From Hyphomonadaceae bacterium (GTDB taxonomy: Bacteria; Pseudomonadota; Alphaproteobacteria; Caulobacterales; Aquidulcibacteraceae), in the NCBI GenBank assembly GCA_016791365.1, contig JAEUMT010000023.1, positions 1 to 51,148 of the forward strand: a stretch of DNA of 51,148 nucleotides. Reading direction: 5' to 3'. The position numbers and the translations under genes were made by a program. The notes beneath the pieces are model-generated. The model worked only from the letters and a program-made list of their open reading frames with translations, was not told the origin of the DNA and made no database searches. Position 1 is the stretch's first letter; every line of letters starts with the position of its first letter. This document shows positions 48,780-49,705 of the stretch, one piece after another.

Positions 48780-49238
48780 TTAGTTCTGCCTCGCCATCGC
48801 GGTAACGCGGATCATGAATTGCGAATTGTGTGATGCGCCGCTCGAATAGACCGCGTCAACCACAGCCAAATTGTTCTTCTGGAGATTGATATCGTAAGTG
48901 CGCAAGCGCAGTCCGGGCTCAGTGGGATGAGGCTCGTCCTTCACGCGCTTTGCGTCAGGGTGAGCGCGCTGCACCGCGGCGTCGAGAACATCGATGCTCT
49001 TGTCGTTATCGCCTTCGGCGCACCAGATCGTGGTGAGCACGCCGTTCGAATGAAAGAACACGCCGCCATCGCCGACCTGGTAAAACAACGCCTCGCCGTC
49101 TTCGGCGATACCGAGGTCTGACTTTTCCTGCTTGCTGATGATGCGCGGCGTCAGCCCGAGCGCGCCCTTCACCGTGCCGCCAATGGCGGCAACGGCGCCG
49201 TCAACGGCGAGCTTCGCGGCGACTTCGCTTTGCATCAT
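48780..49238 (-). CDS. Uncharacterised atp-operon protein 2 (paralogue of neighbour)
   Basis: A 152-residue soluble protein, no signal peptide or membrane segment. I know no family. It aligns without gaps to the neighbouring 156-residue protein, with a constant offset of four residues from 42 to 144: LG, D-x-E, FY, GD-x-GVF, W, GD-x-DK, LD, PG-x-R-x-R-x-Y, A-x-Y and R are shared. Its ATG overlaps the previous stop by 4 nt (49235-49238), and atpC starts one nucleotide after its own stop, so it is coupled to the atp genes. Its tight placement between atpD and atpC suggests a role with the F1 part, but this is inference. Confidence 0.82.
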   Translation of the reverse strand: MMQSEVAAKLAVDGAVAAIGGTVKGALGLTPRIISKQEKSDLGIAEDGEALFYQVGDGGVFFHSNGVLTTIWCAEGDNDKSIDVLDAAVQRAHPDAKRVKDEPHPTEPGLRLRTYDINLQKNNLAVVDAVYSSGASHNSQFMIRVTAMARQN

Positions 49239-49705
49239 GCCGATCTTTTGCGCGGCTCAATACGAACGGTGAACTTGCGCGCCTTCGAACCCGGCGCCGG
49301 GTAGTTGGCTTCAATCCAAGCCAGCAATCCGCCGGATAGATCGACTTCATACATCCGCCCGCGCGTGCCAGGCGTTGCAGGCGTTTCGATATCGCCAATC
49401 TGACGCGTGCGCGGATAAACCTGCTTCAACTTGCGATCGAGCAATTCGAGGCCCTTGTCGCAATCACCGCCGTTGAACCAAACCATGAGCATCTTCGGCG
49501 CAAGATCCAGAAACACGCCGGTATCGCCGGCCCCGTAGAAATAGGTCTCACTATCTCCACTGAGGCCAAGCTTGGCGCGCTCCTCAGGCGCAAGCGCGAT
49601 GGCGGGCGTTGCCGGCGCGACGTAGTTGGTCTTGTCCTGGATGATGGCCAAGCAACGGTCGACGACGATATCCGCCGCGATGTTTGCGGGCGTTATCTCG
49701 CTCAT
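49235..49705 (-). CDS. Uncharacterised atp-operon protein 1
   Basis: A 156-residue soluble protein without signal or membrane segment. The N-terminus ([19 protein letters not shown]) is helical, followed by the conserved block [39 protein letters not shown] and [20 protein letters not shown], and a basic tail PRKRSA. It is a paralogue of the next gene. Its ATG overlaps the atpD stop by 4 nt (49702-49705), and its stop overlaps the following ATG. I know no family for it. The alternatives are an accessory, inhibitor or assembly factor of the F1 complex, or an unrelated passenger. Confidence 0.82.

Follow-up and report, generated by a model that had tools for sequence, protein, structure and literature searches.

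ATP synthase operons are usually held very stable. Why, then, do two further genes stand between atpD and atpC, which encode the F1 beta and epsilon subunits, in a Hyphomonadaceae bacterium? We analysed a stretch of 51,148 nucleotides (contig JAEUMT010000023.1, hereafter the window), in which the products of the two inserted genes are called P0001 and P0002, together with related genomes. It was revealed that this one junction of the F1 operon is an insertion slot across an order. An earlier note on this DNA had inferred a role in F1 for the pair; that its position implies such a role is not supported, since the same junction houses unrelated genes in many Caulobacterales. We lean towards the reading that the two proteins are lineage-specific passengers in a permissive, co-expressed slot.

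The atpD–atpC junction in Caulobacterales

The junction was surveyed in 110 Caulobacterales genomes at least 95% complete, 104 of which had atpD and atpC linked. The gaps, which were measured between match ends and hence are a few nt off, were 61–200 nt in 11 genomes, 201–400 nt in 14, and >400 nt in 36. The direct succession of atpD and atpC, called usual in the earlier note, is the textbook order, but a junction of ≤60 nt was found in only 43 of the 104 genomes. Five of the 36 large-gap genomes carry the family of the pair (G000, which is the genome of the window, G005, G027, G038, and G045), and 31 of the 99 linked non-carriers have >400 bp in the junction. We read 29 of these 31 intervals (those of G058 and G131, also >400 bp, were left out), and tblastn with P0001 and P0002 gave no match in the 29. 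Slot contents included an opposite-strand enoyl-CoA hydratase (PF00378, E 2.5e-41, one tested), secreted- or lipoprotein-like frames, a small Cys-rich frame with a zinc-ribbon match below the cut-off, and, as judged by eye, VWA-like and toxin–antitoxin-like frames, while some intervals had no clear frame. A smaller gap in G036 contained an ABM monooxygenase (PF03992, E 7e-16, one tested). The slot was empty in G008 of the same genus (gap 0), partly readable in G002 with an ABM-like frame after atpD at the contig end, and unreadable in G015 and G028 because of contig breaks. The atpD–atpC junction is a general insertion slot in Caulobacterales, and relatives have unrelated genes exactly where the window has the pair. 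Within the same GTDB family, genera g13 and g5 have atpC away from atpD, and their F1 operon looks split; the two genes were ~130 kb apart in G041 and G053 and on separate contigs in G046, G050, and G033.

Within the genus of the window, the slot of 8 of the 12 non-carriers (G001, G010, G014, G018, G019, G020, G022, G023) held a small Pro/Ala-rich protein with the pattern (W/F)FA(D/N)...LGP(or Q)...KKKKGWF, which reads VNKLGP in G020. A match ending in KKGWF was found in 28 of 36 genomes searched. Thirteen carriers of the pair in the genus, including the genome of the window, encode a KKGWF-type protein outside the slot; in G011 and G016 the pair family and a KKGWF-type protein occupy the slot together, and the pair-family proteins of G016 and G045 have a C-terminal KKKGWF or KKKKGWF of their own. 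KKKKGWF is possibly a membrane-binding tail; a literature search, whose coverage left out most subscription journals, found nothing on it beyond one unrelated KKGWF match. The KKKKGWF protein, present in the slot at loci L064-L070, L086, L089, and L200, usually occurs once per genome in the genus (twice in G018 and G023), and that of the window's genome lies at G000:C65 near 34700 (L161, L206). The pattern was absent from G002, G007, G009, and G014, the last of which has a protein ending in KKKKGWFG.

A second kind of occupant was a secreted-looking protein of ~185 residues, found in G020 (same genus), G044 and G048 (same family), G139 (another family, in tandem), and L142. These proteins are homologous to one another; their loci are L071, L075, L076, L142, and L167 (in tandem in L167). 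When their profile was compared with that of the pair family by hhalign, a match with E 0.0033, a score of 24.8, and a probability of only 9.7 was obtained, and a relaxed realignment gave a co-linear full-length match (2-154 to 28-185). The controls all scored below 24.8: the best of 100 column shuffles reached 19.8, the best of 69 unrelated open reading frame (ORF) clusters 20.4, and the reversed alignment 8.0. By HMMER, single-sequence similarity between the two families was not significant (E 1.8 in 4347 ORFs). A common origin of the two families is suggested by the profile match.

Distribution and evolution of the pair family

Searching 398 Caulobacterales genomes with the family profile gave 40 strong copies, each at E 1.1e-38 or lower, from 23 genomes, all belonging to genera g1, g10, and g11 of GTDB family f1. 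Sixteen carriers have a tandem pair, one (G009) has two separate copies, and six have a single copy. A class-wide profile search matched in 1 of 385 genomes, that of the window itself. Many carriers are draft metagenome assemblies; the named carrier loci come from metagenome assemblies mostly labelled Hyphomonadaceae, Caulobacterales or Alphaproteobacteria, with a few other labels, and Terricaulis is the label of one same-genus relative without the family (L137). No match was obtained among plasmids searched with P0002 only or among phages searched with P0001 only, and a search of genome contigs with P0001 alone gave no confirmed match. Partial profile matches with E 0.002-0.008 (one each in G002, G206, and G157, and extra ones in G016 and G025) were treated as chance; four of the five lie within longer frames, and that of G157 contains two stops.

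Twelve of 30 same-genus genomes lacked the family, two of them being <70% complete, and 10 of the 12 possess both atpD and atpC. The family thus does not accompany F1 in all close relatives, as an accessory subunit would. A tree of beta plus epsilon was built from 35 genomes, leaving out G017 (two atpD–atpC loci, on contigs 193 and 33) and G052 (no atpD on the contig). The presence of the family requires about 7 gains or losses on this tree, at least 3 of the changes being forced by well-supported branches, and in a crude test among 27 genus members no beta or epsilon column perfectly separated carriers from non-carriers.

The ratio of nonsynonymous to synonymous substitution rates (dN/dS), which is rough because dS was near saturation, was 0.06-0.30 for P0002 and four orthologues (10 pairs), 0.16-0.38 for the first-position genes of four relatives (6 pairs, P0001 itself being outside the set), and 0.02-0.07 for atpC (10 pairs). 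No internal stop was found in any of the 40 copies. On these estimates, the family genes of the relatives are under purifying selection, and the family is constrained while evolving at several times the rate of epsilon.

In the family tree, P0002 was placed within a well-supported clade of second-position copies, and it shares 59-67% identity with the second copies of L104, L105, L106, and L107. P0001 fell outside a supported set (96/83) of copies from both positions and apart from the first copies of its nearest relatives. Forcing it into this set gave p-AU 0.039, a value that is indicative only, as the group was picked after the first tree and the branch is long. In L121 and L128 the two kinds of copy stand in swapped order. 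The position of P0001 and the swapped order suggest that copies were shuffled or replaced within the slot. A recent tandem duplication giving P0001 from P0002 was rejected on the basis of this tree, and the pair is probably not of such origin; there are indications, no firmer than the p-AU value, that P0001 was replaced within the slot or is of older origin. The term duplicated, used in the earlier note, should be refined, in that P0001 is neither the sister of P0002 nor, by the tree, an orthologue of the neighbours' first copies.

The only copy away from the atp genes is one of the two in G009 (G009:C16:58166-58615; L010, L032), located upstream of rpsL-rpsG. It clusters with the single copy of G011 in the family tree (100/98). 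Placement beside ribosomal genes for high expression was considered and rejected, as an opposite-strand frame intervenes before rpsL.

The pair in the window

P0001 and P0002 are paralogous beyond doubt by sequence comparison. BLASTP aligned them with 45/151 identical residues (30%), one gap, and E 5e-27, and their local alignment score of 206 far exceeded that of 1000 shuffles (mean 27.7, sd 4.5, maximum 50). They are the sole two family copies detected in their genome at E 0.001. Together with the coordinates in Table 1, these data bear out two tandem paralogous genes between atpD and atpC; the two 4-nt overlaps and the one-nt spacing to atpC are exact, and the motifs named as shared are present in both proteins. 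A gap-free alignment with a constant offset had also been described; the offset of four residues is constant from residue ~37 of P0001 to the end, but the single gap lies near that residue.

Table 1. Features of the atpD–atpC junction in the window
Feature	Position	Strand	Basis or remark
atpD, F1 beta subunit (477 aa)	49702..51135	-	ORF call and matches to atpD of relatives; upstream neighbour of the pair
ATGA overlap (4 nt), atpD stop and P0001 start	49702..49705	-	Sequence
P0001, first inserted gene (156 aa, ATG)	49235..49705	-	Family without a name; predicted small alpha/beta domain, weakly Mog1p/PsbP-like
Overlap (4 nt), P0001 stop and P0002 start	49235..49238	-	Sequence
P0002, second inserted gene (152 aa, ATG)	48780..49238	-	Family of P0001
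atpC, F1 epsilon subunit (133 aa)	48377..48778	-	Downstream neighbour, one base (48779) after P0002

The contig ends only 13 bases before the atpD start. A promoter scan of the window gave one promoter-like site, on the plus strand and not on the operon strand, and 7 terminator-like sites against 3.3 expected, three of which are on the operon strand (48611, 49108, 49531) and each within a coding frame; neither result was used as evidence. Downstream of atpC (46803-48344), the window encodes a secreted-looking protein of 184 residues (47790-48344) and a metallophosphoesterase (PF00149), and in L142 and L167 secreted-looking proteins and, by eye, a metallophosphoesterase-like frame sit between atpD and atpC instead. 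This difference in placement indicates that the neighbourhood moves around atpC. The 47790-48344 protein was considered as a homologue of the slot families and rejected, the similarity being not significant.

Predicted fold

Single-chain models of P0001 and P0002 were confident (pLDDT 93 and 92, respectively) and showed a small alpha/beta domain, in which a long helix at the N-terminus accompanies an antiparallel sheet. By eye, no signal peptide is evident in either protein. The nearest fold, only weakly matched, was Mog1p/PsbP/DcrB-like. Two archaeal-virus proteins, AcrID1 (7.1, 7.3) and ORF-99 (6.9, 7.0), tied with DcrB, and Foldseek searches with the models returned many thioesterases with low TM-scores; the assignment to the Mog1p/PsbP-like fold is therefore not unique. 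A viral structure library gave no match at E <= 0.001. Resemblance to no known family, as first noted from the sequence, was borne out: Pfam, NCBIfam, and PDB sequence searches gave no significant match, their weak TPR, HPr, and NusG hits looking like chance, PADLOC gave none, and PHROGs only two short weak matches (E 0.012 and 0.26). PF08786 (DcrB/DUF1795) was absent from the Pfam results of the pair, aligned with it over 8 columns at probability 0.2 when three PF08786 proteins were compared by hhalign, and was not found in the window's own genome.

Probable passengers of the slot or possible factors of F1

Slot contents, patchy presence, and fast evolution agree more readily with a permissive slot for co-expression than with a pair integral to F1. 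The pair would occupy the slot and thereby be translationally coupled with F1 beta and epsilon; this coupling rests on the overlaps and few-nt gaps, and a shared transcript and a common expression level would follow. The Mog1p/PsbP/DcrB fold, to which the small domains are weakly similar, is one that binds protein partners, and the pair may do likewise. F1 itself would not depend on the pair, whose members would have come and gone, changed places or given way to others in the slot. Its selected function would probably lie outside the catalytic core of F1, in binding or in a chaperone-like activity to which steady expression is of benefit.

Several observations weigh against the passenger reading. 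The tandem pair is retained in 16 of the 23 carriers. Of the 40 copies, 39 lie next to atpD and/or atpC, in three genera and across deep divergence, a fidelity greater than would be required of a random passenger. Coupling is close in almost every one of the 15 tandem pairs among the 21 named carrier loci (two of the pairs, L122 and L123, being nearly identical). Where atpD is on the contig, in 14 pairs, its stop and the start of the first gene are -4 to +14 nt apart. The two genes of a pair are separated by -1 to 13 nt except in L127 (46 nt), and atpC follows the second after 0 to 30 nt except in L135 (156 nt), so that 14 of the 15 pairs are within range in either case. For the six single copies, the distance from atpD is -1 to 2844 nt and that to atpC -4 to 35 nt. 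When window genes from a simple greedy gene-call set were compared, the codon usage of P0002 was as atpD-like as that of atpC (30/36 genes lower); that of P0001 was ordinary (15/36 lower). The presence of the family on the F1 tree was clustered in comparison with 500 shuffles (5 as low for carriers, 1 for non-carriers), as vertical inheritance predicts. Finally, outside the group the junction is short, 9-27 nt at each of 19 named loci (L140, L141, and L143-L159, a large share of which come from Sneathiella), which makes the slot a lineage trait and not a universal one. A gap of 2405 bp computed for L160 is an artefact, as the match of the wrong subunit was used and the frame within the gap is atpD.

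A role directed at F1 is possible and is now the minority reading. The two proteins, made co-translationally along with beta and epsilon, would pair as a dimer or heterodimer and attach to F1, perhaps to its membrane-bound form, as an assembly chaperone or regulator in this lineage only. The atp-locus fidelity, the two-sided coupling, and the retained tandem paralogues argue for it, as does the weak fold likeness to PsbP and to the Eag chaperones, which stabilise transmembrane domains according to PMC12881460. It is opposed by the repeated gain and loss with no beta or epsilon column tracking them perfectly, by the fast evolution next to a conserved F1, and by the unrelated genes filling the same slot. 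The F1 zeta inhibitor is moreover kept in 58 of 61 genomes searched, including that of the window (G000:C52) and 16 of 18 same-genus carriers; on this ground, replacement of zeta by the pair was considered and rejected.

It is doubtful, though conceivable, that the junction houses an old Mog1p/PsbP-like family with a secreted branch and a cytosolic, paired one, the pair being retained at the F1 operon because it acts on newly made F1 or on the docking of F1 to the membrane, and the KKKKGWF-tailed, disordered protein being its alternative or partner. In two genomes, the family protein has such a tail itself. Conflict or immunity genes are less probable still: the family is fast-evolving, patchy, and paired, the fold also occurs in immunity and anti-CRISPR proteins, and an essential operon would give constant expression. 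Spurious or decaying frames left in an operon gap can hardly be entertained, as nothing but the absence of named relatives speaks for them, and the relatives' dN/dS well below 1, the 40 copies free of internal stops, and the high-confidence models speak against.

The passenger reading, which we prefer, and its rivals concern a protein family without a name, confidently modelled, and kept almost only in the atpD–atpC slot. Should F1 be the target of the pair, ATP synthase would have a new factor specific to this lineage; if it is not, the case is a caution against reading function from tight coupling in an essential operon. Under either reading, family and slot provide a directly testable system.

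Comparison with known systems

An unidentified reading frame, gene X, likewise lies in an alphaproteobacterial F1 operon, that of Rhodopseudomonas blastica, but between gamma and beta. The literature covered, which left out most subscription journals, yielded nothing on genes inserted at the atpD–atpC junction of these bacteria.

Like the pair, the F1 zeta subunit (DUF1476, PF07345) is a small supernumerary protein of the same bacteria. The pair is nevertheless distinct from it, as had been proposed: P0001 and P0002 gave no PF07345 match at E up to 10, the list of families obtained for 38 members (E up to 1) did not include it, and the zeta gene is located elsewhere in the window's own genome. 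This agrees with PMC9317440, in which alphaproteobacterial zeta is encoded outside both atp operons.

The proteins with a Mog1p/PsbP-like fold, namely DcrB, the Eag chaperones SciW and EagT6, PsbP, and Mog1, are weakly similar to the pair in structure but have no detectable sequence relation to it. The secreted slot family occupies the same atpD–atpC junction, stands in tandem in G139, and aligns with the pair family over the full profile length; it is unlike the pair in having, by eye, N-terminal signal-like sequences.
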